From assembly GCF_003464595.1 (NCBI RefSeq), contig NZ_QRZF01000037.1:1-14937 (forward strand): DNA of 14,937 nucleotides, written 5' to 3'. Shown piece after piece: positions 1 to 14,880 of the stretch. Origin of the DNA: Bacteroides intestinalis (GTDB lineage Bacteria > Bacteroidota > Bacteroidia > Bacteroidales > Bacteroidaceae). The translations under genes were made by a program, and so were the position numbers. Numbering within the stretch: position 1 is the stretch's first letter; each line of letters starts with the position of its first letter. The notes under the pieces were generated by a model. That model did not search any database, was not told where the DNA came from, and saw only the letters and a program-made list of their open reading frames with translations.

Positions 1-1463
1 GCCCGTGCAATACCAATTCTTTGTTTTTGACCACCGGACAATCGGCTACCGTATTCGCCTAATGGTGTGTCCAATCCTTGTGGTAATTCATCTACCCATT
101 CCTTCAGTTGCACTTGTTCCAGAACCTGCATCACCTTCATCCGGTCAACTTGCGATTGCCCAAGTGCAATGTTATCCGCAAGCGTCCCTTCTATAATAAA
201 TATTTCCTGCGGTACGTACCCCACCAGCTTATGCCACTCACTTCGGTTAGTAGAAGTCAGTTTCCTGCCATCTATAAGTATCTCGCCGGAAGTAGGTGGG
301 AAGAAGCCGAGCATCAGGTTAAAGAGGGTTGATTTGCCAGTTCCACTTGCTCCCCGTATTCCGATACGTTCACCGCAACTAATATTTAGATTCAAACCAT
401 TGAACAACATGTCTCCGTCAGGAAAAGCGAAACCGAGTCCGCGTAATTCAAGTGTATACTTAAATGTAAACGATGTACCTTCCGATGCACCCTCTTCCTG
501 CCGCCGACCGCCTTGCACATCTTGCTGTGGTTCATTGTTGATGCCTTCTTCCACCACCGCTATGGTATGCGAAGCGTTCTGTAGTGTCACCCAACTGTTC
601 AATAGGTTTCTTACGGCAGGAATCAGTCTGAAAGCAGCTACTGCAAATACACCGCTCACCAATCCCAGGTCACCGCTTCCCGTACCAATCAGCAATGCCA
701 GTCCCACTACCACCGCCACTTCCGAGAGGAAGGACGGAAAAAGTTGGTACACTTCTGTGCGCAGACGGTTACGGACAATAAATTCCAGACCTTGGTCAAA
801 AGAAGTAAGCGAAGTATGAAAGGCTTGTGCAATTTCCAATTCCGCATATCCCCGGAAAGCCTCCACCACTGTGCGGCTCTGCTTGCGGCGTGCTTCCAAT
901 TCCTCCATGCCGTAACGGCGCAGACGCTTCCGTACCAAACCCACATACAGAGCGGCCAGAGGAAAAAAGGAAGCACAAAGCAAAAATCCGGCAAGCGGTT
1001 CCCAGACGACAAGAGCCGATACCATCAACAGTACCAGCACTGCTTCTCCCGCCATACGAAAGACCGGAGCCAGCACACACAAACTGAATGTATAACAAAC
1101 ATAGTTTACCTCGTGTCCCAGTTGTACGCTACTCTTCCTTTTCAGGAAAAGCAGTCCGCGATGATAGTAATTGGCAAACATCCGGCGACTGAATTCACGA
1201 TAGATTTCCAGTTGATAACTGCTTTGTACACGTGCCAGGAGCGTAACCAAAGCATTCTTCAATAAAACAAATAGCAATACGGCACCGCACAACGTCAGCA
1301 TCCTTCCCCGTCCGCCATCCTGCTTTACCACTACCAGCAATATAGGTATCAGTGCCGCTACTCCTGCAAAATCGAGAATAGCACGCAGCAATACCGAAAA
1401 AGCCACCCAAATGCTTCGTTTACGTTGCCTTTCCGGCAACATCTGAAATATTCTTTTAATCAT
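1..1463 (-). CDS. ABC exporter, fused permease and ATPase, left copy (C-terminus beyond window)
   Basis: This is a half-transporter with an N-terminal six-helix membrane domain followed by an ATPase domain. It probably works as a homodimer in the inner membrane and exports a peptide or lipid-linked substrate. From the ATG at 1461-1463 the frame is open for 487 codons to the window edge. Walker A (GASGTGKS) is at residues 371-378, the Q-loop reads GYVPQ, and the LSGGQ signature is near 475-479. Walker B and the H-loop lie outside the window. No C39 peptidase domain precedes the membrane part, so it is not a self-cleaving bacteriocin exporter. It starts 7 nt after the stop of the Wzz gene and is surely co-transcribed with it. 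It is a close paralogue of the gene at 13217-14875, nearly identical in the ATPase part. The linker at about residues 318-350 differs completely between the copies. The true substrate is unknown. Confidence 0.93.
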   Translation of the reverse strand, partial: MIKRIFQMLPERQRKRSIWVAFSVLLRAILDFAGVAALIPILLVVVKQDGGRGRMLTLCGAVLLFVLLKNALVTLLARVQSSYQLEIYREFSRRMFANYYHRGLLFLKRKSSVQLGHEVNYVCYTFSLCVLAPVFRMAGEAVLVLLMVSALVVWEPLAGFLLCASFFPLAALYVGLVRKRLRRYGMEELEARRKQSRTVVEAFRGYAELEIAQAFHTSLTSFDQGLEFIVRNRLRTEVYQLFPSFLSEVAVVVGLALLIGTGSGDLGLVSGVFAVAAFRLIPAVRNLLNSWVTLQNASHTIAVVEEGINNEPQQDVQGGRRQEEGASEGTSFTFKYTLELRGLGFAFPDGDMLFNGLNLNISCGERIGIRGASGTGKSTLFNLMLGFFPPTSGEILIDGRKLTSTNRSEWHKLVGYVPQEIFIIEGTLADNIALGQSQVDRMKVMQVLEQVQLKEWVDELPQGLDTPLGEYGSRLSGGQKQRIGIAR

Positions 1464-1470
1464 CTGTCAT

Positions 1471-2673
1471 TCACCTGCTTGCTTTCTCTCGCTTACAATC
1501 TGTTCTTTTCTGTCTTATCTTTCTTATAAAGTCCTTCGCAAACAATACCCAGCCTACACTTCCTGCTCCGGTCAGCAAGACACACTCTAAAAGTATTAAC
1601 ATCTTCCGGGGTTTTGACGGAGCGAGGGGAACTATCGCAGGCTGGATAACCGCCAATACGGGAATTACCTTTTCGACTTTTGCCTGAGCAGCCTGTACTT
1701 GCAACTCCGTCCGATTGTAAGTGGACAAAGCCAGCTTCATTTCATTCTGTAACCTTGCCAACTCTGCACGCGAAGCCAGCTTCGCCAGTCCCCGGTTGGC
1801 ATCTGCATACCGGGTATATTTCTCTTGGGCGGCGTAATACTCTGCCTGTGCTTCTTTACGGAGCTCCTCGTTATATTTCAGGATTTTGCGTGCCTTGCCC
1901 GTCCTGTATGCCGTTACGTACTCCTTCAGGTGTGCCAGCACGGTGTCTGCCACGATGGTGGCCACCAGTGGGTCTTGCATGGTGACGGATAATGTAATGG
2001 TCCGCCTCCTATTCCCACTCTTTTTATTTATATCAATACCGATCCTTGAAGCGATGGCCCCCGCCATACCTGCTTCTTCACGGGTCAATCGGAAAATATC
2101 AATTTCCCGGGATACTTTTTCCGTTTGCGACTTCTCACTTAACAGAGACATACCCCAACCCATCAACCTGGATGGCGCTGATGTGACGACACTCCACCAC
2201 GGACTTTTCTGTCGTTCTTTCAGATACTGCGAGAGGGTTATTGCAGTACTATCTTTCTGCTCACGGACCTCGACATTGAAAAGCCGCACAAGAAATGGCG
2301 TAGACTTGATGATGTCGGGATATAAAAGTGAGAAAATGGCATCCCTCTCAGTAGTGGAGGAAGATTTCATGTCAATGCCGGCCATATCTGATAGCTCACT
2401 TATACCTGAAGAGGAGCTTCTGCGCGAATTTTCCGGTACAATGAAGACGCTGGCCGTATATTCCTTAGGAACTCCGGAACCTATAACAATCCCTACTATA
2501 GCTCCAATGGCACAGGCTATAAGAATCAATTTCCGGCAATTCCATAATTTCTTTGCCAGTTCCAGCAAATTGATTTCTTGTTCTTGCACGGATTGTCTCA
2601 CACTTTCTTCGTTTGTTATATTGCTCATTTTCAAGCTATAATTATCACACGATGAATTCATTATCTCAACCAT
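1471..2673 (-). CDS. Wzz/GNVR-type chain-length determinant protein, left copy
   Basis: This is an inner-membrane polysaccharide co-polymerase-like protein of 400 residues. The first membrane helix is at about 48-66, followed by a large periplasmic domain with a predicted helical, charged stretch at about 260-340. The second helix is at about 358-379, preceded by the proline-rich motif PLAPSKPRKM typical of the Wzz family. No tyrosine-kinase domain follows. Alternative starts are M5 (2661) and M16 (2628). M16 aligns best with the start of the right-hand paralogue (MSNITNEE against MNSNTINE), while the upstream ATG keeps the spacing to the preceding hairpin seen on the right. No glycosyltransferase, flippase or polymerase gene is in the window, so the usual role in O-antigen or capsule length control is unproven. 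It may instead be a periplasmic partner of the adjacent ABC exporter. Confidence 0.9.
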   Translation of the reverse strand: MVEIMNSSCDNYSLKMSNITNEESVRQSVQEQEINLLELAKKLWNCRKLILIACAIGAIVGIVIGSGVPKEYTASVFIVPENSRRSSSSGISELSDMAGIDMKSSSTTERDAIFSLLYPDIIKSTPFLVRLFNVEVREQKDSTAITLSQYLKERQKSPWWSVVTSAPSRLMGWGMSLLSEKSQTEKVSREIDIFRLTREEAGMAGAIASRIGIDINKKSGNRRRTITLSVTMQDPLVATIVADTVLAHLKEYVTAYRTGKARKILKYNEELRKEAQAEYYAAQEKYTRYADANRGLAKLASRAELARLQNEMKLALSTYNRTELQVQAAQAKVEKVIPVLAVIQPAIVPLAPSKPRKMLILLECVLLTGAGSVGWVLFAKDFIRKIRQKRTDCKREKASR

Positions 2674-2701
2674 GCTGAATTACTTTATACATCATAAAGA
2701 A

Positions 2702-2729: not shown

Positions 2730-2829
2730 AAGCTTCAATTCTATTCAGGTTTCAATAAATTAAACCCTCTACCTTATAGGAATTATACTCCCCAATAAAT
2801 AAGACATATCTTATCTATAATTTTCCCAA

Positions 2830-5307
2830 TCAATATACTTTAACGATTGATTCAAAAGTAGCTTGGTAATATTTATCACCTGATTTCCATGTAAGTTTCT
2901 TACCGTCTACACCAGTCTGATCTCTAGATACAAAAAGGTTGTAACCCAATGAAGTATTAGTATTTACTATAATAGGATCATTTTCAGTACCTGTTTCAGC
3001 CCCCAGAGAAGCATGGAATGCATTTCCGGCAATATCTGTCACTACTTGGTTAAACATTATTACGGCCTTAGATGCAAGTCCTGTCAATGCACCTTCTTTG
3101 ATAGCTGTTACCTTCTTCAAATTCACGGTAGCCAAAGTGCTTGCTCCATTAAACACATTCTTTTCAAGTGTAGTAACGTCATCAATAACTACAGAAGTTA
3201 ATGTAGCAACATCTTGGAATGCTCCTTCTCCGATAGTTGTGATTCCTGTAAAATCGAATGCAGTGATTGCAGTTCCTTTGAAAGCTTCTTTACCAATTTT
3301 AGTAATCGTATTTTCAAAGTCAATGGCAGCAGTCAAGTTTGTACAGCCAGAGAAAGCCTCGTCACCTACAGAGGTTATCTTATTAAGATTCTTGATGGTA
3401 AAACCAGTAGTACCGGCATTCTTGAAAGCACCTGCTCCAATAGCTGTATTTTCTTGCAAGATAACGTTTAATAGATTTACTTTACCAGCCAAACTAATAC
3501 CTGTATTTCCACCAATAGCACTAACTCCGGAAAGGTCGATATGAGTCAATGCTGTTCCACTCAATAGCTGGGCACGAATCATAGCTTTACTCCAATCATA
3601 GCTGGGTAACAATACTTTAGTCCATGCATTATCCATTTTATAACCAAAGGGTTGGTCTGAAAGCGAAGTCAGTGCAGGAGCATCAATCAATGTCAGATTT
3701 ACTCCGGCAAAAGCATTGTCACCAATAGTAGTCAAAGCAGACGTTTTATTTCCCTCGTCATCAGTAGTACCAATAATTAAACTTTCGGTGCCACATCCAA
3801 TTGTCGTGATATTCGCAGCTCCTTCAAATGCACTTTCACCGATCGTTTCAACCTTCGGGAAATTGAAATTAGTAATCGTAGTATTACTCTTGTAAGCACC
3901 TGCCGGAACAGAAGTTACTTCCGGACCATTCAATGTAGCAAGGCCAGCAAGAGAGGTAATAACCGGAGCTGTAGTAGCTTTTGTCAAGGTCAATTCAGTG
4001 ATAGAGCTACCTTTAGTTACATTCTCCAGATTAGTGCCCAAATCAGCAGCAGGATTGGCCAGTGTCAAAGTTGCGATTCCTGTATATTTATCTTTCAATT
4101 CTGCAAGCTGAGCAGCTGACAATGAAACATTAGAAGTGAAAGTTGTAATAGTTGATGGAGCTTTATTCCCACTATTAGGTATATTTTCAGAGGCATCTAA
4201 TGCAGGCATATTCTTATTAACAATCATAGTATTACCTAAAACAACATAATCCTGTGCTGTGAGGTCAAGCTCTATTGTATAGAAATTATTGGCTGTCCAC
4301 GACTTGCTGGATGATTTATCTAAAGTAATATCTCCATTCTCAAACTCAAACTTAACAGTATAGTCTTCCGAAGAAGAACGGTCTACAGGAAGAATTTGCA
4401 TGAAAGCGTAGTAATCATCACTCCATCCAAGACCGCTACCACTACTATTTAGAGTTAGCTTCGCTGTCTTTACTCCAGTTCCACCAGAAAGTTCCCATTT
4501 TCCATCCACTTTTTTAGCAATATCCACCTTTCCATTGGCATCATTCCAAGCGATATCATTTGTAGTCAATGTAACTTCAATACTCACTAATTTTCCATAA
4601 GTATCAACGTCATATCCTTTGGTATTGAATACCAAACCGGCAAAAGCACGTTCGAAAGATAGGTTCAAGCTTTCACCTACAGCCAATTCGTTAGAATTTA
4701 TATCTTCTATAGGGTCAGCTACCATTACAAAGTTACCAAATGGAGCTTTTTCGCTTGGCTGATCTTGAGTATCGAAGGCAGCTACCGCCAAACTCATTGT
4801 TTCTACATTTGAGATAGCAGATGCGTAAGTCAAATCCGCGTCTACTAGAGGAGTTTTATTTGTACGGAACACTCGGAAAGCAGCATCTGTGCCGCTTTTA
4901 AAAGTCAAAAGACTCGCGGGTTCTTTGGCTGTAAAGTAACCGGCTCTACCCGTGCGCGTAGCTTTATATGTAGCAACAGCAGCACCTAAATTTGTAGAGG
5001 CAACATTTTGATCTGTACCTCTTGTCGCACCACTAACTCCATTCCAGAGAGTCGCATCACCAGCACCATTCTTTTCTACACCAAAATAAGCAATAGAGAT
5101 TTCGTCGACCTCAGCATTCCAATAAGACTTAAATTTACCATCTGCTGGATCTTTATTAATGTCACCACGTGTAACGGCATCATCAACGATACCAAAAGTA
5201 ATACCTTCACTTTCTGCTTTAGGTATTGTAATGTCAAGCAATTCCTCGTTGGCGCAACTGGCAAAAATGAGAGCCGCACTGGCCAGTGTGAATAATTCTT
5301 TTTTCAT
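2830..5307 (-). CDS. Surface lipoprotein: fimbrillin-like N-terminus, BspA leucine-rich repeat C-terminus
   Basis: The 825-residue product begins with an SPII signal (MKKELFTLASAALIFASC), with the lipidated cysteine at residue 18. Residues about 35-355 resemble the fimbrillin/Mfa-like family: a TRGD segment at 46-49, then SYWNAEVDEISIAYFGV, and an Ig-like domain ending near LGNTMIVNKN. Residues about 380-800 hold degenerate repeats of roughly 23 residues with the pattern ITxIGxxAFxG..L..., the BspA/LRR_5 type. These form an elongated solenoid used for adhesion or ligand binding. The protein is expected at the outer membrane or cell surface. It is the second gene of the left operon, 83 nt downstream of the small peptide gene. 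Its right-hand counterpart has the same kind of N-terminus but an unrelated C-terminus. Whether it polymerises as a pilin is not shown. Confidence 0.88.
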   Translation of the reverse strand: MKKELFTLASAALIFASCANEELLDITIPKAESEGITFGIVDDAVTRGDINKDPADGKFKSYWNAEVDEISIAYFGVEKNGAGDATLWNGVSGATRGTDQNVASTNLGAAVATYKATRTGRAGYFTAKEPASLLTFKSGTDAAFRVFRTNKTPLVDADLTYASAISNVETMSLAVAAFDTQDQPSEKAPFGNFVMVADPIEDINSNELAVGESLNLSFERAFAGLVFNTKGYDVDTYGKLVSIEVTLTTNDIAWNDANGKVDIAKKVDGKWELSGGTGVKTAKLTLNSSGSGLGWSDDYYAFMQILPVDRSSSEDYTVKFEFENGDITLDKSSSKSWTANNFYTIELDLTAQDYVVLGNTMIVNKNMPALDASENIPNSGNKAPSTITTFTSNVSLSAAQLAELKDKYTGIATLTLANPAADLGTNLENVTKGSSITELTLTKATTAPVITSLAGLATLNGPEVTSVPAGAYKSNTTITNFNFPKVETIGESAFEGAANITTIGCGTESLIIGTTDDEGNKTSALTTIGDNAFAGVNLTLIDAPALTSLSDQPFGYKMDNAWTKVLLPSYDWSKAMIRAQLLSGTALTHIDLSGVSAIGGNTGISLAGKVNLLNVILQENTAIGAGAFKNAGTTGFTIKNLNKITSVGDEAFSGCTNLTAAIDFENTITKIGKEAFKGTAITAFDFTGITTIGEGAFQDVATLTSVVIDDVTTLEKNVFNGASTLATVNLKKVTAIKEGALTGLASKAVIMFNQVVTDIAGNAFHASLGAETGTENDPIIVNTNTSLGYNLFVSRDQTGVDGKKLTWKSGDKYYQATFESIVKVY

Positions 5308-5390
5308 TTCTTTTTTTATTTAATTAAATAATTTCTTTGTAGCTTCAGCATACTAATTCCTTCTTCAAGAATTAAAGCTTTAACTGTTGG

Positions 5391-5516
5391 CTATGCATCT
5401 TCTGTATTGCCATCGTTAAAATCTCCGCTTGCTGCGAATCCTTTTTCTACAACCACTTCCAAAATATCCACTTCGGGAGCTTCATACTTCATTTCCTTTT
5501 CTACTTTCATAATCAT
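5391..5516 (-). CDS. Small acidic peptide, left copy; RiPP-precursor-like
   Basis: This is a 41-residue ORF starting MIMKVEKEMKYEAPEV, followed by DILEVVVEKGFAASG and a 10-residue tail DFNDGNTEDA. Its reality is shown by the paralogue at 9204-9353: 27 of the first 31 residues are identical, and the 26 nt before the start codon are also conserved. The tails beyond FAASG do not align. A conserved leader with a variable, Gly/Asp/Asn-rich end is what peptide precursors (RiPPs) look like, and a PqqD-family protein is encoded nearby. It is the first gene of the left operon, about 140 nt downstream of the repeated promoter. It has no signal peptide of the Sec type. The ATG two codons later (5510) could also serve as start. 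Its function is unknown. Confidence 0.82.
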   Translation of the reverse strand: MIMKVEKEMKYEAPEVDILEVVVEKGFAASGDFNDGNTEDA

Positions 5517-5542
5517 AAATTTAATTGTTAGTAATATTAAAA
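5517..5542 (-). promoter_or_regulatory. Conserved translation-initiation leader of the left peptide gene
   Basis: The 26 nt just upstream of the ATG match 9176-9203 of the right operon except for two missing T residues. The rest of the leader between promoter and peptide gene has diverged. The element is A/T-rich (AATATTACTAACAATT core) with no Shine-Dalgarno sequence, as is usual in Bacteroides. It supports the MIM start for both peptides. Confidence 0.6.
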
Positions 5543-5651
5543 ATTCTCTTTATTTATTAGTTACATCTGTTCATTTCAGTCAATCTATCTACCTAACAAT
5601 CAAGATTACTACTCAACAATAACCTGACTATTCTTCATATAAATTAGGTAT

Positions 5652-5705
5652 AGTAAAACCTCCTTTCAGCCTGCAAAGTAAGAAACAAATTTCCTAAATA
5701 TATTT
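5652..5705 (-). promoter_or_regulatory. Repeated promoter of the left operon, one arm of a 46-bp perfect inverted repeat
   Basis: Bases 5660-5705 are the exact reverse complement of 9027-9072. One mismatch and 7 more matching bases extend the arm to 5652. Read leftward, it carries TTTAGGAAATTTGTTTC and then TTACTTTG at 5674-5681, a good -7-like element (consensus TAnnTTTG). There is no clear TTTG at -33, so an activator or alternative sigma factor may be needed. Transcription would start near 5668, leaving a leader of about 150 nt before the peptide gene. Promoter function is inferred. Confidence 0.65.
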
Positions 5706-5883
5706 TTAGTGTATTTCGTTGAATATCTGGATACTAATAATAAGTAAGAGGAGAAAATAGGGAAGGAATAGAATTTCCGGGAAATAGTATTAAACGATGT
5801 ATAGGTTTAGTAATTAAGTAGTTGTGCCATTGATAGTTAATGGCAGTCCAAACTATTTATATATATTGGCACTTTATTCTGGC

Positions 5884-5911
5884 ACCATATTATATAGCAA
5901 TATAATATGGT
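5884..5911. repeat. Perfect 12-bp palindrome with a 4-nt spacer
   Basis: ACCATATTATAT (5884-5895) is the exact complement of 5900-5911, separated by AGCA. It is AT-rich with no T tract behind it, so it looks more like a protein-binding site or a recombination core than a terminator. It lies about 180 bp upstream of the left promoter. Confidence 0.6.
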
Positions 5912-6090
5912 AACATGCTTATTATCAAAACATAACGAGGTGGCCAAACGAGAAAACCCCTATTGCTACAAATGGAGTTAGCACCATTATCAGACACCGG
6001 CAATAAAAATCTTATTTACAGCTAAGTAAATAATTCCTTCGGTGACTCTTGGAGAGAAGACTCTCGATAATAATCAACTAACGCATGAAG

Positions 6091-6209
6091 GGAACCAAAC
6101 CGTACCTGGACCGAGTCAAGTCCATACCAAATCCGTACTTGCTCCGTATAAAAGTACCTCTACATGGAGCTGGTACGGACTTGACATGGACTTGGTACGG
6201 AGCAAGACA
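6091..6209. repeat. Two opposing arrays of 11-bp units (GGACTTGGTAC family)
   Basis: On the plus strand four abutting 11-mers occupy 6166-6209: GGAGCTGGTAC, GGACTTGACAT, GGACTTGGTAC and GGAGCAAGACA. On the minus strand five abutting 11-mers occupy 6145 down to 6091: GGAGCAAGTAC, GGATTTGGTAT, GGACTTGACTC, GGTCCAGGTAC and GGTTTGGTTCC. A 20-nt spacer separates the arms. Because the arms oppose each other, the region can also fold as a long imperfect hairpin. It lies just downstream of the recombinase gene. No coding role is likely. Confidence 0.75.
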
Positions 6210-6228
6210 TACACATGTATGTGTAAAA

Positions 6229-6239
6229 GGGCACTCTTT
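6229..6239 (+). repeat. 11-bp inverted repeat flanking the recombinase gene, left arm
   Basis: GGGCACTCTTT is the reverse complement of AAAGAGTGCCC at 7609-7619. The two arms bracket the recombinase gene closely, 12 nt beyond its stop and 69 nt before its start. They could be boundary sites of a small insertion or recombinase binding sites. The match is only 11 bp, so chance is possible. Confidence 0.4.
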
Positions 6240-6250
6240 TTCTTAAGACT

Positions 6251-7540
6251 CTAAGCTAGGATAGCTTTTTCTTTTTTCAGTAACCGGACGAAATCAGTCA
6301 TCAGTTCTTTACTCGATGCTCTCATATAGCGCTGAAATGCTTGGAAAGAACGATGTCCGGAAAGCGACATCACGTAGTTAATCGGATAGCCACGTTTATA
6401 AAGATTGGTCACACAACTTCTTCTGGCCGTATGGAAGCTTATCAATTCGTATTTCGGAATTGTCACTATGGTAGTTTCTCCACCACGGTACTCCTTACGG
6501 CTAACAGCCTCATTAATACCGCATCGCGCAGCAAGAACCTTAATGATTTTGTTGGCCTTCACCTTATCTATAACCGGAAAGCCAATCTGCTGATAGTGTT
6601 CAATCAGTGGCGCTATTTCCTTCAATATCGGAATTTCAACCAGCTCTTTCGTCTTTTTCTGGTAGAGCGATATTACTCCCTTCCGTACGGTTGCTTTATT
6701 CAACTGCTGTATATCACTAATCCTTAATGCTGTATAACAGGCAATAATAAAAGCATCCCTTACCTCACGCTCCTGGTCACTCTCTGTCTTTGCCAAAGAA
6801 AGCTTCTGGATCTCCTTCTCTTGCAGATAAATCTGTTCACTCGAATCAGCAGGCAGTGTAGTCTGAACTTTCAAGAAATAGTTGTTGGTTGTCATCTCGC
6901 TGTCATAAGCACGATGCAACAGATTCTTGATTACTTTCAGCGTATTGATGATTGTATTCTGAGTATAATGCTTTCCGGTTTTCCCATAACTGTACCCGTA
7001 AAGGTAGTTGGTGAAATCCACAAAGAACTTTTTATTGAAGTCGTCGAACGAACCGATCGGCACTTTCCGTTGCTTGTCGTAATCTTCCAGACGCCCTAAT
7101 GCAGTGAGGTAGGTAGCCTTGGTACTTTCGATGCCACGCTTCCCTTTGCGATTTACATTCTTTTCATACTCGCCAACCAATCTTCTCAGACAAGCAATAG
7201 GATTTTGCAAAAGTTGTTCCTTCTGCAGGTTTTTATCAACGATTTGCCGGACAACAGCAGCCGACAAGTACTCGCCTTTCATAGCGAGTTGTTCGTCCAT
7301 TTCGCATAAAGACGTTACTAAATTATCAATTTGTTCATTAATATATTTCAACCGAAGCCTCTCCCGTATGTTCAAGCCTCCATTCTGATAGCATCGATAT
7401 GTTTCATGGTTCCAATACTGTGGCTCTACACGGAGTTTGGTATAAACCCTGATTCTCCGTTTATTGATAGTTGTCACAAGCATTATTTGCGTCAGTTTAT
7501 TCTTTTCACTGACCTGCTTTAGATTGAATCTAATTTTCAT
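6251..7540 (-). CDS. Tyrosine site-specific recombinase (integrase family)
   Basis: This 429-residue protein cuts and rejoins DNA through a 3'-phosphotyrosine link. Its N-terminal part (to about residue 90) has the Bacteroidetes-type arm-binding pattern, and residues about 105-215 form the SAM-like core-binding domain. The catalytic domain keeps the full set: R273 in TALRISD, a lysine in the following beta turn, H370 and R373 in HTARRS, H396 in SGHRS and the nucleophile Y405 in QRYMRAS. It appears intact. The start at 7540 follows an AAAGGAAG stretch. Genes of this family in Bacteroides include integrases of mobile elements and the invertases that flip surface-structure promoters. No other mobile-element gene is nearby, while inverted repeats lie directly upstream of the gene and around the neighbouring PqqD gene. 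I therefore favour a local DNA-inversion role, by inference only. Confidence 0.93.
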   Translation of the reverse strand: MKIRFNLKQVSEKNKLTQIMLVTTINKRRIRVYTKLRVEPQYWNHETYRCYQNGGLNIRERLRLKYINEQIDNLVTSLCEMDEQLAMKGEYLSAAVVRQIVDKNLQKEQLLQNPIACLRRLVGEYEKNVNRKGKRGIESTKATYLTALGRLEDYDKQRKVPIGSFDDFNKKFFVDFTNYLYGYSYGKTGKHYTQNTIINTLKVIKNLLHRAYDSEMTTNNYFLKVQTTLPADSSEQIYLQEKEIQKLSLAKTESDQEREVRDAFIIACYTALRISDIQQLNKATVRKGVISLYQKKTKELVEIPILKEIAPLIEHYQQIGFPVIDKVKANKIIKVLAARCGINEAVSRKEYRGGETTIVTIPKYELISFHTARRSCVTNLYKRGYPINYVMSLSGHRSFQAFQRYMRASSKELMTDFVRLLKKEKAILA

Positions 7541-7608
7541 TTCTTTTTCTTCCTTTCAGTTTAGTGGTAATTGTTCCATAATTATCAAGATTATAGTGAT
7601 ATATAAAC

Positions 7609-7619
7609 AAAGAGTGCCC
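7609..7619 (-). repeat. 11-bp inverted repeat flanking the recombinase gene, right arm
   Basis: AAAGAGTGCCC is the partner of GGGCACTCTTT at 6229-6239. It sits one base before the 18-bp palindromic site, 69 nt upstream of the recombinase start codon. Confidence 0.4.
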
Positions 7620-7620
7620 A

Positions 7621-7638
7621 TCTTATTTTCAATAAGAA
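7621..7638 (+). repeat. 18-bp palindromic site, copy 1 (candidate inversion site)
   Basis: TCTTATTTTCAATAAGAA occurs here on the plus strand and, exactly, on the minus strand at 8796-8813. Each copy is itself a 7-bp inverted repeat (TCTTATT/AATAAGA) around a 3-nt centre. This resembles the paired arms of a tyrosine-recombinase core site, or an operator. The position about 80 bp upstream of the recombinase start is typical for invertase target sites. Confidence 0.6.
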
Positions 7639-7841
7639 TATATAAGAAAGCTATAAAAAAGTTTGTATTTATGCATTTTCGTTGAAAAGCATAAAAAAAA
7701 AGCTTTATTTTGTTTGCAGATGTCAATAAAATATCTACCTTTGGCTCGCAAAAGCATGTAGAATAGAGATGTGTTTTCACGATAAAGGAGAATTTGCCAT
7801 ATTTTTACCCGAAAAGATAAAAAAATAACGAATTCTTTTGA

Positions 7842-7858
7842 ATTTAGGAAATTTGTTT
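7842..7858 (+). promoter_or_regulatory. Third, partial copy of the operon promoter box
   Basis: ATTTAGGAAATTTGTTT is identical to the upstream half of the 46-bp repeat (9032-9048 and its mirror on the left). The downstream half with TTACTTTGC is absent. No rightward gene follows for over a kilobase. It may be an orphan binding site for the factor that controls both operons. Confidence 0.45.
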
Positions 7859-8099
7859 TTGGTGTTTTCTCATGATACATAGAGCTTAAGAGGTCTATAT
7901 CACGCCTATTCGGTAAGAGAATTTCTCTTCAATGTTAACCTCAGGTATATATACAAAGAATGCATCTGCTATTTTCAATACAAAAAAGAGTGTACCAAAA
8001 CAGAATAATTTAATTTATCTGATTATAATACTATCTCATTATATGCAATGAGTTATAGCAAATTATTAATATTTCTCCGGTAAATGTAACAGGAAAGAA

Positions 8100-8366
8100 C
8101 TATCCTATGATTCCACAGTTACTCAAAGCATCCACCCACTTTTGGGTATCAACTAAGGCTTGATCTTTGGATATGCCGTAATGATTCATTAATACCTCTG
8201 CAGCATCTTCCAAAGAAAATTCTCTTCCTTGCAATTCTTTCCAAAGAAGCAGTGCTGTATTATTAAGTGAAATTACTTTAGTCATATCAGACTGGGACTT
8301 TCCTTGCTCGACGATCAGGTTCTCACCTGCAATCTCCCGAACTTTATAATTCTCTTTAATTTTCAT
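8100..8366 (-). CDS. PqqD-family protein (peptide-recognition domain, RRE type)
   Basis: This 88-residue, free-standing domain begins MKIKENYKVREIAGENLIVE, with a central MTKVISLNNTALLLWKEL and a C-terminal winged-helix part (EFSLEDAAEVLMNHYGI...QKWVDALSNCGIIG). This is the usual PqqD pattern of an N-terminal beta hairpin pair followed by three helices. Members of the family bind the leader of a ribosomal peptide and present it to modification enzymes in PQQ, lasso-peptide and similar pathways. The small peptides at 5391-5516 and 9204-9353 are the obvious candidate partners. No radical-SAM, cyclase or protease gene is in the window, so the partner enzyme must lie outside or be absent. The gene stands alone between the two operons and has its own promoter-like element. 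The family assignment is firm; the peptide partnership is inferred. Confidence 0.85.
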   Translation of the reverse strand: MKIKENYKVREIAGENLIVEQGKSQSDMTKVISLNNTALLLWKELQGREFSLEDAAEVLMNHYGISKDQALVDTQKWVDALSNCGIIG

Positions 8367-8400
8367 AGTGACAAACGTTAAATTAGTGTTTCAAGAAATG

Positions 8401-8408
8401 CAAAGGTA
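8401..8408 (-). promoter_or_regulatory. -7 promoter element of the PqqD gene
   Basis: Read leftward the sequence is TACCTTTG, a full match to the Bacteroides -7 consensus TAnnTTTG, 34 nt before the start codon. A clear TTTG at -33 is not present, so strength is uncertain. Confidence 0.5.
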
Positions 8409-8520
8409 AACATTCTCTTGAAAATTATATACTATAATATAAAAAAAGAGTCTATAACAGATTTAATTGTTTTTTATCAGTGATTATCTTCCATCTATTA
8501 AGGTGGCAATCTCTCTTTAT

Positions 8521-8632
8521 GCGAGTATTAATTCGTCCCCTTATAGCGGGACGCAATGTTCCTTATAAGGGAACGCAATGTTCTCCATAAGGGGACGCAA
8601 TGTACTCCATAAGGGGACGAATTAATATTCGC
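8521..8632. repeat. 22-bp tandem units closed by a 24-bp inverted repeat
   Basis: The outer arms are 8521-8544 and 8609-8632, complementary over 24 bp with one mismatch; the inner 19 bp are perfect (TATTAATTCGTCCCCTTAT). Inside, a 22-bp unit repeats with starts at 8548, 8570, 8592 and, partly, 8614. It is built of GGGACGCAATGT followed by TCTCCATAAG or a variant. One unit contains the palindrome CCTTATAAGG. A transcript would fold into a long stem, and alternative pairings between units are possible. The role is unknown: possibly a small non-autonomous element, a regulator-binding array or an RNA structure. Confidence 0.8.
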
Positions 8633-8795
8633 TAATTCAGCACCAAGTTATTACGAGGGAGGGAGGTGGTATAGCTACATGGCTTCACTGAGTGTGTTCG
8701 ATGGTTCTTTGTAAATGCATTTCTTGTTGTTAGTGCCTAAAAATGGTGTCATTACTATTAAAAAAAGTGAGTTTCTTATCATTTATAAAATCCGT

Positions 8796-8813
8796 TTCTT
8801 ATTGAAAATAAGA
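8796..8813 (-). repeat. 18-bp palindromic site, copy 2 (candidate inversion site)
   Basis: This is the exact reverse complement of 7621-7638. The two copies face each other across 1.16 kb that contains the PqqD gene, the promoter-box fragment and the 22-bp repeat element. Recombination between them would invert that segment. Confidence 0.6.
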
Positions 8814-9026
8814 GAATTACTATCGTGTGCTCTTATTCTATAAGGTGCAAGAAAGAGGTGTCAATATATGCAGAGGACTAAAATAGAATGTTTCCTACTA
8901 AATATGTAATAAGCTGTGTGCTAATATATTGAATCATTCTTTTTGATTATAACAAATTCTTTTCTTTTTATTTAAAAAGATTTCTCCTAAGCACATAACA
9001 ATCATATTATCAATACAATATCACTC

Positions 9027-9080
9027 AAATATATTTAGGAAATTTGTTTCTTACTTTGCAGGCTGAAAGGAGCTTTTACT
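9027..9080 (+). promoter_or_regulatory. Repeated promoter of the right operon, second arm of the 46-bp inverted repeat
   Basis: Bases 9027-9072 are the exact reverse complement of 5660-5705, and the match extends to 9080 with one mismatch. It contains AGGAAATTTGTTTC and the -7-like TTACTTTG at 9051-9058; transcription should start near 9064. A -33 TTTG is lacking at the usual spacing, which points to activator dependence. Flanking DNA on both sides is not conserved between operons. Confidence 0.65.
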
Positions 9081-9175
9081 GAGCTTTTTTATAGAAATAT
9101 TTGCAGGATTGTAAGAACGGTCTTGATTCTTTTAATAGTAAAAGAGGTGCATTACTAGTTAATAATGAAGATACA

Positions 9176-9203
9176 TTTTAATATTACTAACAATTTAAAT
9201 TTT
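9176..9203 (+). promoter_or_regulatory. Conserved translation-initiation leader of the right peptide gene
   Basis: The 28 nt before the ATG match 5517-5542 of the left operon, differing by two T insertions. The conservation up to the ATG at 9204, together with the diverged DNA further upstream, argues against the earlier in-frame ATG at 9165. Confidence 0.6.
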
Positions 9204-9353
9204 ATGATTATGAAAGTAGAAAAGGAAATGAAGTATGAAGCTCCGGAAGTGGAAGTTCTGGAGGTAGAAGTAGAATTAGGTTTCGCTGCTTCTGGCATTG
9301 AAGGTCCTGGGATAGGTGGAGACGACGGTGACTTTAGTGGTGGTGACGACTAA
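9204..9353 (+). CDS. Small acidic peptide, right copy; RiPP-precursor-like
   Basis: The 49-residue product begins MIMKVEKEMKYEAPEV, then EVLEVEVELGFAASG, then an 18-residue tail IEGPGIGGDDGDFSGGDD that is almost entirely Gly, Asp and small residues. The first 31 residues match the left peptide at 27 positions; the tails do not align. The frame is open back to 9165 (62 residues), but only the ATG at 9204 is conserved in the left copy. There is no Sec signal or membrane segment. The FAASG junction could be a processing site. It is the first gene of the right operon and precedes the lipoprotein gene by 65 nt. Similar small peptides are common upstream of fimbrillin-like genes in Bacteroides, and I know of no established function. 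Confidence 0.82.
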   Translation: MIMKVEKEMKYEAPEVEVLEVEVELGFAASGIEGPGIGGDDGDFSGGDD

Positions 9354-9418
9354 ATAAAAGTTGTTGAATCTAGGCGAACGTATATCAATTAATGTATTTA
9401 AAATTTAAACTAATTGCA

Positions 9419-11923
9419 ATGAAAACAAAACATTTATTAATGGCTTGTGCGCTGCCTGCTTTATTTGCAGCATGTAGCCAGGAAGAGGCTCTGGTGAACG
9501 TAGAACCGGAAGTACAATACAAAGGGAAACCGTTGGAGAACGTCACTTTATCCTTTAATAAGGAAACAAATGCCGCAACCAGAATGGTAAATGACGGTTG
9601 GAATTTAAAGTGGAAGGCAGGAGACCAAGTTGGGCTAGTTTGGGTGAATGCACCGGAAATCCAACAACAATTTACTGGCGGGAAAGAATATGATCCGACT
9701 GTACTTCCAAATACTGCATTTTGGGCAAGCAATACCCGTATGACTTGCAACGATCCTGACAATAATATTTTTGGAATGCAGGATGGTCAGGTATTAGAAG
9801 GCCAATACTTTGCTTACTATCCTTATTCTGACAGATATAAAGTAGATGGTAAGTTTGGCTTGAGTGTTGATGCAATACAACCGCAGGGAAGTACGGACTT
9901 GACCCAGCCGACAGAGGTACTGTCTTATGTTGTGGACAATATGCCGTGGGTGTCAAGAAGAGTAGATGAGCAAACTGAAGAAACAAACAAAAATGCTACT
10001 TACATTTATCCGTTGCAAAATGAAGAGGCCGGCATGTCGAAAGCTATTAATATGGAGATGTTTCGTTTTGCCAACATGTTGGATGCTCGTGTGACCTTTA
10101 AAGCAGGTTCGCAGACAATCATAAATCCTGAAAAGGTACAGATTGAAAGCGTTGACCTGATAGTGACAACCCAAAATGAAGGTTGGGCTGTAGACAAAAT
10201 TGCGACTTCCGGCCTGTTTGACATGAGTAAGATCAAAAGACGTAATAATGGTGCATATGATGAATTTGGTATTCCATCGTTGAGCGGTACTTCCAAATAC
10301 GCATTGCCTACGACAGAAACTCAGGAGGGGCTGTTTGTCAATGATAATAAAGTTTCAAGCATCACTACTATTATCGAACAACCTGTGGCTAAATCTACTG
10401 GTCGCGTAAATTTCCTGTTGATGCCTTACACAGAAAAAAACAGCTATTTTACGAAAGAGTACTATAAATTGGCTTTGGTTATCCATACTAACTATGGTGT
10501 TGCGACAGTTGAAGAAAGCGACTGGTATAAAAGTAAAGAAAGCGATCCTACTGGTATGCTCGTTTTAGGTCCTAATGCAATAGAGAGTGACAAATTTGTC
10601 AAGATCAGCGATATTGAAGCATTCTATGCAGGTGGATGGGCTGCAAGAACAGGAGCATTCTGTACTCGTTTTATAGAAGTTAATGTAGATGATTTGGAAT
10701 TTGAAACCAACTGTATTAAAACTCAGGACGATTTGCTTGCTACCATCGGACGTATCAATAGCAGAAATGTAACGAATAAGCGCTTTGATCTCTGTGTTGA
10801 CGGTAATGACGCTAACAATGTTTTGGAATTGACTGATTTCGACTGGTCTGCTGAAAGTGATAACGAAGCTATCAAAACATTCATTACTGCAGGCAATACA
10901 TTACGTTTGAAGGAACACTCAGATAAACAAGTGACTATCAAATTTAATGGTAATAACAAGATTGGCGCTGGTCAGTTGACTAATCTTTCTAACAAAATAG
11001 ATATAGTAGTTTCAGAAAATGCTGTTCTGGATGTAAACGCTGATTTCACAACAGGTATTTTTGCAACAGAGCAAAACTCCATTCTGAACGTTAACGGTGC
11101 AAAATTGACTACTGGTGTTGCAACTTTGAGCGGAAGCACTAACATTTTAGTTACGAATGAAGAAGCTGGTGAATTGAATGTTGTAAGCAAGAGTGAGAAC
11201 AAGGGTACTATGGAAGTTAAGGGTATCCTAAGCTTCAAGGGTAATGCTGTCGTAAGTAATACAGGCACTATCAACTTATACTATACTGCTCAGTTGACGG
11301 GTGTTGCCGGCCAAGTAGCAACATTGAACAACAGCAATGTTATCAACTATTACTATGCTAAGAGTGGAGACAAGAAAAATGTCAATATTACTAACGTAGA
11401 GGGTGGTCAATTCATTGCTGAGTACAATAATGGTATTGTTCCTGGGACAGGTGACAATGAAAAGAAGGCAGATTTCATGAAGAACGCCAATTCTTATGGT
11501 GTAACTCACTATATCATTTCTAAGGCTTCTGATGCCAACTCTGAAGCTTGGAGCTTGCCCAATGCTACTAAGATCACAGTAAAGCAAGGTGTTACATTGA
11601 CATTTAACCCGACTAAGGCTTCTACTATGGGACTTACAGCATCGAAAGCTCTGTTGTACTTCGAAGGTGATAATGAATTAGCTTCTACAGGTGACTATAC
11701 TAGCTATGCAAAAGTTGCAGTGAAAGACATCACCTTGGCATATGGTACAAAATTGACGAATAATGTAGAAGTTGTCTTGACTGGCAATTTCCAGGCAGAA
11801 GTTGACGGTAACAATTCCACAACCTACACTGTAGACAATAAGGGGTATATTTATGGTGGTACCCGCGTTAGCCAGTCTGGTACAATTACTTGGTTGGGTA
11901 AGGAATACGGAGTCAAGAAGTAA
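9419..11923 (+). CDS. Large surface lipoprotein: fimbrillin-like N-terminus, beta-repeat C-terminus
   Basis: The 834-residue product starts with the SPII signal MKTKHLLMACALPALFAAC, with the lipidated cysteine at residue 19. The upstream in-frame ATG at 9392 would bury this signal, so 9419 is preferred. Residues about 45-430 resemble the fimbrillin/Mfa-like family: ATRMVNDGWNLKWKAGDQVGLVW, then FAYYPYSD and FRFANMLDARVTFKAG. From about residue 450 the chain becomes rich in Asn, Thr, Val and Gly with short beta-type repeats (for example ENAVLDVNADF and NSILNVNGAKL), suggesting a beta-helix-like stalk. It should sit on the outer membrane, facing outward. It occupies the same operon position as the leucine-rich-repeat lipoprotein of the left operon. 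Its C-terminus is unrelated to that protein, as if the exposed domain had been exchanged. Ligand and assembly state are unknown. Confidence 0.85.
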   Translation: MKTKHLLMACALPALFAACSQEEALVNVEPEVQYKGKPLENVTLSFNKETNAATRMVNDGWNLKWKAGDQVGLVWVNAPEIQQQFTGGKEYDPTVLPNTAFWASNTRMTCNDPDNNIFGMQDGQVLEGQYFAYYPYSDRYKVDGKFGLSVDAIQPQGSTDLTQPTEVLSYVVDNMPWVSRRVDEQTEETNKNATYIYPLQNEEAGMSKAINMEMFRFANMLDARVTFKAGSQTIINPEKVQIESVDLIVTTQNEGWAVDKIATSGLFDMSKIKRRNNGAYDEFGIPSLSGTSKYALPTTETQEGLFVNDNKVSSITTIIEQPVAKSTGRVNFLLMPYTEKNSYFTKEYYKLALVIHTNYGVATVEESDWYKSKESDPTGMLVLGPNAIESDKFVKISDIEAFYAGGWAARTGAFCTRFIEVNVDDLEFETNCIKTQDDLLATIGRINSRNVTNKRFDLCVDGNDANNVLELTDFDWSAESDNEAIKTFITAGNTLRLKEHSDKQVTIKFNGNNKIGAGQLTNLSNKIDIVVSENAVLDVNADFTTGIFATEQNSILNVNGAKLTTGVATLSGSTNILVTNEEAGELNVVSKSENKGTMEVKGILSFKGNAVVSNTGTINLYYTAQLTGVAGQVATLNNSNVINYYYAKSGDKKNVNITNVEGGQFIAEYNNGIVPGTGDNEKKADFMKNANSYGVTHYIISKASDANSEAWSLPNATKITVKQGVTLTFNPTKASTMGLTASKALLYFEGDNELASTGDYTSYAKVAVKDITLAYGTKLTNNVEVVLTGNFQAEVDGNNSTTYTVDNKGYIYGGTRVSQSGTITWLGKEYGVKK

Positions 11924-11937
11924 TATACCTTTGAATT

Positions 11938-11967
11938 AAAGAAGAATGAGTCTATTCATTCTTCTTT
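11938..11967 (+). terminator. Perfect 12-bp hairpin after the right lipoprotein gene
   Basis: AAAGAAGAATGA (11938-11949) pairs exactly with 11956-11967 around a 6-nt loop. It is followed by A-rich rather than T-rich DNA on the plus strand, so it is not a classical terminator for the lipoprotein gene. It may be an mRNA-stabilising or processing structure ahead of the strong terminator at 12018. Confidence 0.5.
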
Positions 11968-12017
11968 AAAAGGAAAAACTGACTGGATAGGATTATATAA
12001 TCTGAATGTTTAATTTT

Positions 12018-12055: not shown

Positions 12056-12081
12056 CAGAAGAAGTTCCGAGTGAAACTAAG

Positions 12082-13224
12082 ATGAATAGCAATACTATAA
12101 ACGAGAGGAAAGATATGAGACCACCATCTTCTCAAGAACAGGAGATTAATCTGTTGGAACTGGTAAAGAAAGTCTGGGACTCGCGGAAATTGATTTTGAG
12201 AATGTGTGGCATTGGAGCTGTTGTTGGGTTAGTTATAGGTTTCAGCACTCCTAAGGAATATACAGCAAGTACCCTTATTGCCCCGGAAAGCAGAAGGGCT
12301 TATCCGGGTAAAAGTGCATTGGTAGATATGGAAGATGACAATCTGAGTTCATCAATCACAGGTGAAAAAGATGCCATTTTTCCGGTTTTATATCCGGAAA
12401 TCATCAATTCGACGCCGTTTCTTATACGGCTTTTCGACATCAAGGTACGCGAACAGAAAGATAGTGTTTCGATTCCTCTTTCACAGTATCTAAAAGAACG
12501 TCAGAAAGCACCATGGTGGAGAATTATTACTTCAGCTCCGTTCAAACTGACTGGATGGATCGTATCTCTATTCAAAGATGAGTCAAATGAAGATAGCGGG
12601 CAAGCAGGGACAAAGACGGGTATAAACCCTTTTCGGCTGACTCGCAAAGAAGCAGGCATGGCAGGTGCTATCGCTTCGAGAATCAACATCGGGGTGGACA
12701 AAAAGAAAAGAACTATAACTATATTTGTCACCATGCAAGATCCGTTAGTTGCTGCTACTGTGGCAGATACCGTACGAGTATACTTGAAAGAATATATAAC
12801 GGAATACAGGACAGGTAAAGCACGCAAGTTCCTGAAATATACAAAAGAACTTCGTAAAGAGGCACAGGAGGAATATTACAGTGCACAGGAGAAATATACC
12901 CGGTATGCGGATGTTAACCGAGGGTTAGTGAAGTTAGCCTCACGCGCTGAACTGGTAAGGTTACGGAATGAAATGAAGCTGGCTCAAACTACCTACAATC
13001 AGACGGAGCAACTGGTTCAGGCAGCTATGGCAAGAGTGGAAAAGATAAGGCCTGTTTATGCGGTTATCCAGCCGGTAGTAGTTCCACTTAAACCCTCTAA
13101 ACCCAGGAAGATGACGATTCTTGTGATGTATGTCTTTTTGAGTGGTGCAGGAAGTTTGGTCTGGGTATTGTTTGCAAAAGGCTTCCTTAAAGATCTAAAA
13201 AAGAGAAGAGTAGCAGATGGTTAG
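12082..13224 (+). CDS. Wzz/GNVR-type chain-length determinant protein, right copy
   Basis: This 380-residue paralogue of the protein at 1471-2673 has the first membrane helix at about 37-54 and the periplasmic domain between. A long charged helical stretch includes LKYTKELRKEAQEEYYSAQE. The second helix is at about 344-365, after PLKPSKPRKM. The family normally forms inner-membrane oligomers with a periplasmic barrel that set polysaccharide chain length. No kinase domain is attached. Compared with the left copy, the region around residues 155-185 is the most divergent (SNEDSGQAGTKTG here). Its last 8 nt overlap the start of the ABC exporter gene, so the two are translationally coupled and probably act together. 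A terminator lies directly upstream. An adaptor role for the exporter is an alternative to polysaccharide length control. Confidence 0.92.
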   Translation: MNSNTINERKDMRPPSSQEQEINLLELVKKVWDSRKLILRMCGIGAVVGLVIGFSTPKEYTASTLIAPESRRAYPGKSALVDMEDDNLSSSITGEKDAIFPVLYPEIINSTPFLIRLFDIKVREQKDSVSIPLSQYLKERQKAPWWRIITSAPFKLTGWIVSLFKDESNEDSGQAGTKTGINPFRLTRKEAGMAGAIASRINIGVDKKKRTITIFVTMQDPLVAATVADTVRVYLKEYITEYRTGKARKFLKYTKELRKEAQEEYYSAQEKYTRYADVNRGLVKLASRAELVRLRNEMKLAQTTYNQTEQLVQAAMARVEKIRPVYAVIQPVVVPLKPSKPRKMTILVMYVFLSGAGSLVWVLFAKGFLKDLKKRRVADG

Positions 13225-14875
13225 AAATATTGTTCGATTGTTGTCAGAAAAGCAACGCAGGCGTGGTGTATGGGTAGTTTTCTCTGTATTAGCACGTGCC
13301 ATACTCGACTTTGCAGGAATAGCGGCACTGGTGCCAATATTATTAATAGTGGTAAAGCAAGATGGCGGTCGGAGTATGATGCTGGCAATATGCGGTGTCG
13401 TATTACTGTTTGTATTGCTAAAGAACACCTTAGTTATGCTTCTGGCACATGTACAAAGCTGTTATCAGTTGGAAATATATCGGGAGTTTAGTACCCGTAT
13501 GTTTGCCAATTATTATCATCGAGGGCTACTCTATTTAAAAGGAAAAAGCAGTGTACGGCTTGGGCATGAGGTGAATCATGTATGTTATATGTTCAGTCTA
13601 TGCGTATTGGCCCCTGTTTTCCGTATAGCAGGAGAAGCGGTACTGATATTGTTAATAGTATTGGCACTTATCATCTGGAAACCATATGCTGGTTGTTTGC
13701 TCTGTGGAGCGTTCCTGTTCTTATCGGTATTGTATATCTGTTTAGTTAAGAAACGTCTGCGACGTTACGGTATGGAGGAATTGGAAGCACGTCGCAAGCA
13801 GAGCCGTACGGTAGTGGAAGCCTTTCGTGGATATGCAGAACTGGAAATTGCCCAGGCTTTTTATACTTCTCTTGCTTCCTTCAATCAAGGCCTGGATTCT
13901 ATTATTGGGAACCGTTTGCGTATGGAAGTGTACCAACTTTTTCCATCTTTCCTTTCTGAAGTAGCCATAGTGATCGGACTGGCATTGCTGATTGGTACGG
14001 GAAGTGGTGACCTGGGATTGATAAGCGGTGTGTTTGCAGTAGCGGCTTTCAGACTAATTCCTGCAGTGAGATCCGTATTGAATAGTTGGGTAACGCTTCA
14101 AAATGCTTCGCATACCATAACGGTGGTGGAAGAGGGTATTACTGTTATAAGCGACGGACTACCCAAAAACTTATCAAATGAATCTCTTTTAGAATTTACC
14201 CATACCTTTGAATTGCGTGGATTGGAATTTGCATTTCCCGATGGACATACACTTTTCAGTGGTTTAGATCTGGTTGTCAGTCGTGGTGAACGTATCGGCA
14301 TACGGGGAGCAAGTGGAACTGGCAAATCAACTCTCTTTAACCTGATGCTCGGCTTTTTCCCACCTACATCCGGCGAGATACTTATAGATGGCAGAAAGCT
14401 GACCTCTACCAACCGAAGTGAGTGGCATAAACTGGTGGGATATGTACCGCAGGAGATATTTATTATAGAAGGTACACTCGCTGATAATATAGCACTTGGG
14501 CAACCGCAGGTTGACCGAACAAAAGTAATGCAGGTTCTGGAGCAAGTGCAACTGAAGGAATGGCTAGATGAATTACCACAAGGATTAGACACCCCGTTAG
14601 GTGAATATGGCAGTCGGCTGTCTGGTGGTCAGAAACAACGGATTGGCATTGCACGGGCACTTTACAAGGAAGCTGAAGTACTATTCTTTGATGAAGCCAC
14701 TTCTGCTCTGGACAACAAGACGGAAAAGGAAATTAATCATGCTCTGGAAACACTCTCCTTGCGGCACCGTGAACTGACATTGATTGTCATAGCCCACCGT
14801 GAAAGTTCGTTGGCTTTCTGCGACCGGATATTCGATCTTGATACATGCGATATAGTATATAACAATAAGGAATAA
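13217..14875 (+). CDS. ABC exporter, fused permease and ATPase, right copy
   Basis: This complete 552-residue half-transporter has membrane helices at about 18-46, 54-78, 130-175 (two) and 245-285 (two). The ATPase domain has Walker A GASGTGKS at 364-371, Q-loop Gln412, signature LSGGQ at 468-472, Walker B LFFDE at 489-493, D-loop ALD at 497-499 and H-loop His527. All catalytic residues are present. It belongs to the MsbA/lipid- and peptide-exporter type, without a peptidase domain. It overlaps the Wzz gene by 8 nt. Because a partial gene follows 5 nt after its stop, the operon continues. Its ATPase part is nearly identical in DNA sequence to the left copy (1-1463), while membrane and linker parts differ more. 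The substrate could be the small peptide of the same operon, by inference. Confidence 0.95.
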   Translation: MVRNIVRLLSEKQRRRGVWVVFSVLARAILDFAGIAALVPILLIVVKQDGGRSMMLAICGVVLLFVLLKNTLVMLLAHVQSCYQLEIYREFSTRMFANYYHRGLLYLKGKSSVRLGHEVNHVCYMFSLCVLAPVFRIAGEAVLILLIVLALIIWKPYAGCLLCGAFLFLSVLYICLVKKRLRRYGMEELEARRKQSRTVVEAFRGYAELEIAQAFYTSLASFNQGLDSIIGNRLRMEVYQLFPSFLSEVAIVIGLALLIGTGSGDLGLISGVFAVAAFRLIPAVRSVLNSWVTLQNASHTITVVEEGITVISDGLPKNLSNESLLEFTHTFELRGLEFAFPDGHTLFSGLDLVVSRGERIGIRGASGTGKSTLFNLMLGFFPPTSGEILIDGRKLTSTNRSEWHKLVGYVPQEIFIIEGTLADNIALGQPQVDRTKVMQVLEQVQLKEWLDELPQGLDTPLGEYGSRLSGGQKQRIGIARALYKEAEVLFFDEATSALDNKTEKEINHALETLSLRHRELTLIVIAHRESSLAFCDRIFDLDTCDIVYNNKE

Positions 14876-14880
14876 AAGAA

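Follow-up and report, generated by a model that had tools for sequence, protein, structure and literature searches.

Candidate recombinase crossover sites carrying a promoter half at mirror-image peptide-lipoprotein operons of Bacteroides intestinalis and related Bacteroides

The DNA analyzed here is a stretch of 14,937 nucleotides (nt) from Bacteroides intestinalis (RefSeq assembly GCF_003464595.1, contig NZ_QRZF01000037.1, positions 1 to 14,937 of the forward strand), hereafter the window, in which a short inverted repeat is believed to represent the crossover sites of a tyrosine recombinase encoded between its arms. The window harbors a mirror-image pair of operons, each specifying a peptide, a lipoprotein, a Wzz-like protein and an ATP-binding cassette (ABC) exporter, on either side of a center that encodes the tyrosine recombinase and a PqqD-family protein; comparison at the DNA level identifies the two operons as diverged duplicates of one another. 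The left operon, on the minus strand, comprises a peptide gene (5391..5516; YEAPEV leader and variable acidic tail), a gene for a lipoprotein with BspA-type leucine-rich repeats (2830..5307; PF13306, E = 3e-30), a Wzz-like chain-length protein gene (1471..2673; PF02706) and an ABC exporter gene which runs off the window (3..1463), the last being assigned as an open frame and as the DNA-level mirror of the right exporter, without a Pfam scan. The right operon, on the plus strand, comprises a peptide gene of the same family (9204..9353), a lipoprotein gene (9422..11923) recognized as an open reading frame (ORF) whose product has no Pfam match above the cutoff, a second Wzz-like chain-length protein gene (12082..13224; PF02706) and an ABC exporter gene (13217..14875; PF00005). 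Both central genes are on the minus strand, that of the PqqD-family protein (8100..8366) matching PF05402 (E = 7.2e-12) and that of the recombinase (6251..7540), the proposed invertase of 429 amino acids (aa), matching PF00589 (E = 1.6e-17), PF13102 and PF17293.

An exact 46-nt inverted match (5660-5705 and 9027-9072), which includes TTACTTTGC, flanks this center and sits within a 54-nt match of 98% identity (5652-5705 and 9027-9080); both the repeat and the enclosed tyrosine recombinase that were reported in an initial annotation of the window are confirmed. The 46-nt block is far more alike than its surroundings, as the same annotation had stated: when the 400-nt stretches preceding either arm are compared, the best local match is weak and lies away from the arms themselves (24/30 nt, score 30, against a maximum of 27 in 50 shuffles made for another flank pair), and the leaders downstream of the arms are approximately 73% alike (185/255 columns), with a few bases directly outside the arms also appearing similar by eye. 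Each arm is considered to contain one recombination site, with a 25-mer core at 5674-5698 in the left arm (5660..5705, minus strand) and at 9034-9058 in the right arm (9027..9072, plus strand), and each core holds a -7 box, TTACTTTG, at 5674-5681 and 9051-9058, respectively. Promoters of the sigma-ABfr type combine TAnnTTTG at -7 with TTTG at about -33, and such a motif precedes 81% of primary transcription starts in Bacteroides thetaiotaomicron (PMC7366714). No TTTG is present at the right distance from the -7 box at either arm of the window; their upstream halves, of which that of the left arm lies on the 3′ side of the recombinase gene, are of a type designated OFF below. As each arm provides a -7 box only, the earlier proposal that the two operons have the repeat as their promoter is not supported as worded.

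A third, half copy of the site, overlooked in the initial annotation, is located at 7842-7858 (plus strand; 17/17 nt), bringing the site matches in the window to three, a number reached or exceeded in 1 of 200 shuffles. It is preceded by TTTTG (7836-7840) and an A-tract, while the right half-site is absent, and the element as a whole (7836..7858, plus strand) is considered an orphaned -33 half; with this half orphaned and both arms OFF-type, the repeat does not amount to a complete promoter. Further upstream, at 7713..7743 (plus strand), lies a promoter-like sequence, TTTG-N19-TACCTTTG, here termed P_up, within a block in which 59/60 columns are conserved between the window and Bacteroides oleiciplenus. 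The A-tract, -33 box and half-site are likewise conserved with B. oleiciplenus in 50/55 columns, followed by a stretch in which only 44/82 columns agree, which suggests that the -33 half has lost its partner in the lineage of the window.

A pattern scan of genome contigs returned five stretches, two of which (three sites) were located on one contig of B. oleiciplenus YIT 12058, while those from Tannerella (L001) and Clostridia (L004) displayed no match to the window at E ≤ 1e-5. Application of a genus site pattern, permitting at most one mismatch and leaving three central bases free, identified sites in 17 of 158 Bacteroides genomes, with copy numbers of 16 in G117, 13 in each of G114 and G140, and 9 in G039, and the reversed-pattern control gave 0 in all. 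A larger site set was obtained by a scan of the retrieved stretches in which up to two mismatches were allowed, such that more divergent copies would have been missed, and by adding the window, G049 and G248; from this, 99 of 100 copies were kept, in 20 genomes. A one-mismatch pattern match on contig C14 of G087, which lacks a peptide gene, was judged to be a chance match and was excluded from the counts. Because repeats end contigs in short-read assemblies, with 48/97 sites lying within 300 nt of a contig end, contig breaks as such were not taken as evidence.

The site copies evolve in concert. Among the 17 genomes with at least two copies (the window and G049 included), the 25-mers are all identical in 15, and the two deviating sets retain 8/9 (G039) and 12/13 (G140) identical copies. 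The 20 genomes represent 12 majority site types, or 14 types if deviants are included; the site of the window, for example, reads ...TTTGTTTCTTAC..., whereas all three copies of B. oleiciplenus read ...TTTGTTTTTTAC.... The partner sites of a recombinase must match, and central bases which change together in every copy that a genome has argue for recombination rather than for a regulator site; the uniform sites of the window and of B. oleiciplenus, with a different base in each, similarly speak for continued recombination. The initial annotation had weighed recombination against selection by one regulator. On the latter reading, the arms would be binding sites of that regulator and the recombinase would be an unrelated passenger. 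A promoter-sized block with a -7 box inside, located before a peptide gene in 75/78 copies, would suit such a regulator, but central bases that vary from genome to genome while matching in all, or almost all, of the copies (up to 16) of each would not, nor would the co-occurrence of sites and recombinase or the orthologous operons whose upstream halves differ, with the change at the site (both detailed below), and we place very little credence in it. Recombination is supported by the relatives, the concerted sites and the co-occurrence, with the enclosed tyrosine recombinase as the likely agent.

In G117 (L108:8640-8787, L109, L110 and L112), several divergent site pairs are spaced 123 bp apart (start to start) and possess the same two upstream halves, the short intersite spacers being themselves repeated. 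An apparent occurrence of a short G117 spacer in both orientations was withdrawn, as contig orientation is arbitrary, and the notion that the site encodes the terminus of a short ORF, visible by eye in just some of the genomes, was dropped.

Most site copies carry upstream halves of the OFF type; one kind of upstream half is different and has an A-tract that runs into TTTTG(A/T)A right at the site boundary. A TTTG motif 17 to 21 nt from TTACTTTG is present in 13/99 copies, always with a 19-nt spacer, and is lacking in the remaining 86, among which is a copy with no more than 4 nt of sequence upstream; copies were designated ON by the presence of this -33 box. The 13 ON copies occur in 12/20 genomes, one in each except G120, whose two copies are on contigs (C48 and C56) which overlap by 55 nt, and with G120 counted once, no genome has two. 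Where the recombinase gene is on the same contig (8/13 copies), the -33-bearing copy is always on its 5′ side. Counterparts of P_up were recovered by regular expression 212 to 247 nt upstream of 10/13 -33-bearing copies, two of the remaining three having too little upstream sequence, and among 16 halves with P_up or a variant thereof (12 by regular expression, 4 by eye), TTTTG is present at the boundary with the site or half-site in 15, two of these being at a contig end. P_up and its counterparts (window 7713-7858) may give rise to a short RNA before the site, and hairpin-like stretches with T runs were seen by eye near P_up counterparts in some relatives.

We consider it probable, on the basis of these sequence comparisons, that the arms are the crossover sites of the enclosed tyrosine recombinase and that recombination assembles a sigma-ABfr promoter on one cassette. 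Each operon cassette (a peptide and a lipoprotein gene and, in the window, also the Wzz-like and exporter genes) is predicted to begin with one site holding a -7 box, while a single extra half, located 5′ of the recombinase gene where both are on one contig, would contribute the A-tract and the -33 box and would mostly also carry P_up as a second, complete promoter approximately 220 nt further upstream. Joining of the -33 half to a cassette site would create a complete promoter, TTTTG-N19-TTACTTTG, from which the cassette would be transcribed, and the remaining cassettes, devoid of a -33 box, would stay silent, such that one operon would be ON at a time; inverted site pairs would lead to inversion and direct pairs to the gain or loss of whole cassettes. 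We thereby infer that the recombinase makes the crossover, that the -33 box decides expression and that expression is mutually exclusive. A classical promoter capture would differ in that P_up, within the recombinase segment, would be the real promoter, the site would lie in the 5′ leader and the -7 box would be incidental. The near-consensus sequence of P_up, the conservation of its block and its presence upstream of most -33-bearing sites are all in keeping with such a capture, but against it stand the A-tract and -33 box kept directly at the site, the box with a 19-nt spacing in 13/13 copies, while most of the DNA separating P_up from the site is unconserved between distant genomes (by eye), and we regard it as possible, if rather unlikely.

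The proposed crossover function is consistent with the conservation and distribution of the recombinase. Residues R273, K296, H370, R373, H396 and Y405, which we take to be the catalytic residues, are invariant in 14/14 aligned recombinases (the truncated G039 copy being left out), and short identical repeats in inverted orientation flank the segment in the window, L043-L047, L049, L050, L052 and L054. At E ≤ 1e-60, the recombinase was detected in 13 of the 158 genus genomes, that of G039 being a part only; site and recombinase occur together in 11 genomes, the recombinase only in 2 and the site only in 6 (Fisher p = 3e-11, 158 genomes). In the search outside the genus at E ≤ 1e-100, it was found in 1/393 genomes drawn from the order, which is B. 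oleiciplenus itself, and 2/399 genomes drawn from the family yielded a match at this cutoff, namely B. oleiciplenus and G248. The domain composition of the recombinase is that of phage-type integrases, as would be expected if a mobile element that carries it had integrated and left the arms behind as attachment sites; the copies, however, are inverted and present in multiple copies, nearly all of them heading a peptide operon, and positions 5300-9500 of the window match none of 72,556 plasmid or 50,697 phage records, such that we see scarcely any likelihood in this explanation. The viral contigs searched similarly returned 0 matches.

Differences between related genomes are located at the site. 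B. oleiciplenus operon 1 is orthologous to the left operon of the window (85.7% over 5.5 kb), whose upstream half matches that of B. oleiciplenus site P2, not P1 (local scores of 78 versus 32). Sites P1 and P2 lie 9,350 bp from each other in direct orientation and enclose one cassette, which implies that the window and B. oleiciplenus differ by one cassette ending at the site. Operon 2 is common to G002 and B. oleiciplenus (92.7% over 4.3 kb); this similarity ends at the site, beyond which just 19 nt are readable, and the leader in G002 has its closer match in that of B. oleiciplenus P3 (95%). G087 and G120 have a -33 half in common (93% over 802 columns and 100% over the last 150), which leads to different operons, the link in G120 being made via the contig overlap. 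These changes are between species; candidate within-strain configurations are confined to two flanks of G117, over 40 to 50 nt at contig ends, where the 50 nt downstream of C62:16744 recur downstream of C84:10457 (5 nt in the next best copy) and the two ends of C55 agree in 40/40 nt downstream (next best, 12), with different upstream halves in both cases. Such double joins are what a mixed population would give, although two operons alike in their first 40 to 50 nt, or two strains, could also account for them.

The arms might also be homogenized, with no dedicated enzyme, by gene conversion or general homologous recombination acting on the duplicated operons. Consistent with this are the nature of the operons as diverged duplicates, the sharing of some leaders beyond the site, as in the resemblance of the G002 leader to a different B. 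oleiciplenus copy, and the uniform sites of G039 despite its truncated recombinase. Where upstream halves differ, however, the -33 side of the site marks the limit of similarity, and the recombinase is linked to the sites with its catalytic residues intact in all aligned copies, rendering such conversion improbable in our judgment.

A peptide gene follows 75/78 of the copies with at least 450 nt of downstream sequence, at a distance of 85 to 351 nt, and one of the three copies without it is in G049, in which tblastn had found the peptide. The peptide search produced 192 clusters at E ≤ 1, with no Pfam domain among the 120 listed. The peptide gene is mostly followed by a large lipoprotein gene: a large ORF (>300 aa) was selected for 75 copies, of which 71 also have a peptide, two G138 copies having one ORF in common, and no signal peptide is visible in the ON ORF of G033 or in one G049 ORF. 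Among 40 such proteins scanned, six match LRR_5 and other Pfam families match three or fewer each. For the right lipoprotein of the window, the structure prediction (mean predicted local distance difference test score of 51, predicted template modeling score of 0.46) was too poor for a fold search.

The peptide tail goes with its lipoprotein, the mean tail similarity in 20 cross-genome pairs of similar lipoproteins (70 peptides; the pairs are not independent) being 0.72, compared to 0.325 (standard deviation, 0.042; maximum, 0.49) in 2000 within-genome permutations. The ON lipoprotein of G117, for instance, is 54% identical to an OFF lipoprotein of G114, and their peptide tails match. At the operon ends of B. 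oleiciplenus are encoded an NTP_transf_5 protein and a Pfam-less protein with a P-loop-like motif (by eye), which, together with PqqD, recall modified-peptide pathways such as those in PMC8498205. Lasso-peptide biosynthesis, which would call for a precursor, a PqqD-like B1 protein, a B2 protease and a cyclase C, was considered for the peptide: a peptide and a PqqD-family protein are present, and B2 and C were not seen among the proteins scanned, which represent a part of the ORFs. Taking sites and cassettes together, we lean toward a combinatorial switch in Bacteroides, in which one -33 half would serve up to approximately 16 cassettes headed by a -7 box, these being invertible and gained or lost in an integron-like manner, and exactly one peptide-lipoprotein pair with a matched tail would be made at a time.

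Several observations weigh against the proposed promoter assembly. A -33-bearing copy is absent from 8/20 genomes, the window (0/2) and B. oleiciplenus (0/3) included, both of which have uniform sites despite an orphaned -33 half; the contigs of G049 and G113 end exactly at the -33 box, G138 (L052:8190-8300) lacks approximately 30 nt including the box in comparison with G109 (by eye), which looks like a natural loss of the promoter half, and no -33 half was seen in G002, G028 and G044. The -33 box is just 5 nt long, the restriction to one -33 copy per genome is only moderately improbable by chance (272/20,000 random draws), and P_up could drive the attached operon by itself. In G140, G109, G118 and G120, the -33 half and the recombinase were not found on one contig, and 6/17 site-bearing genomes have no recombinase at E ≤ 1e-60. 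G120 (L118:9088-9947) possesses a 60-bp recombinase remnant beside the -33 half, the rest of the gene not having been found, and the G039 recombinase (L054:9793-11400) is truncated after approximately 207 residues, where it continues in frame into an apparent lipoprotein end, yet 8/9 sites of this genome are identical. Some upstream halves are common to several copies of a genome (G117, G140, and P1 and P3 of B. oleiciplenus), and among the 20 listed pairs of similar lipoproteins, just 1 combines an ON member with an OFF member from the other genome.

As the -33 half of the window lies apart from any intact site, neither operon is expected to be transcribed from this promoter, and the system is probably decayed or otherwise regulated in this strain. 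Inversion of the 3.3-kb center, which the initial annotation had deemed conceivable, remains plausible, but in the window it would exchange two OFF-type halves and leave the -33 half orphaned inside the center. Elsewhere in the center, a palindromic intergenic element (8521-8632; arms at 8521-8544 and 8609-8632, with 22-nt direct repeats) includes stretches with dispersed matches in G001 and G002, as does a second intergenic element at 6100-6204. Rfam gave 0 matches at the gathering score, and scans for sigma-70 promoters and terminators returned chance-level numbers.

If the proposed mechanism holds, recombination would build a promoter instead of moving one, mutually exclusive expression would be a direct consequence of the single -33 half, and the ON state would be readable from genome sequence alone; the repertoire of small peptides and surface lipoproteins hidden in gut Bacteroides would, moreover, be large, with each peptide tail paired with its lipoprotein. 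Among the papers listed by the literature searches, none presents such a system in its title or abstract, most subscription journals and preprints lying outside the collection searched. In integrons, cassettes are headed by a recombination site, and their expression depends on closeness to a recombinase-linked promoter; the arrangement proposed here differs in its operon-sized cassettes, its inverted and direct sites and its promoter split by the site. The invertible promoters and shufflons of Bacteroides fragilis (Mpi, Tsr19 and Tsr0667) similarly involve recombinase-driven inversion and surface molecules in Bacteroides, but the accounts available to us portray promoters inverting between repeats and gene shufflons, and no promoter divided by a crossover site is described in them. 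The S-layer lipoprotein BT1927 of B. thetaiotaomicron is likewise a phase-variable surface lipoprotein; it has its own promoter flanked by inverted repeats, and the available text describes no common -33 half (PMC12548429). Close likenesses are offered by the Vpma system of Mycoplasma agalactiae, alongside which vsp of M. bovis and vsa of M. pulmonis are named: in Vpma, a tyrosine recombinase encoded at the locus (Xer1) acts on silent surface lipoprotein genes, and DNA inversions link one gene to one unique promoter (PMC2268961). There, the promoter is whole and recombination takes place between -72 and the start codon, whereas here the -7 box would lie in the site and the -33 box would come from its partner, and peptide and lipoprotein genes would be switched together.

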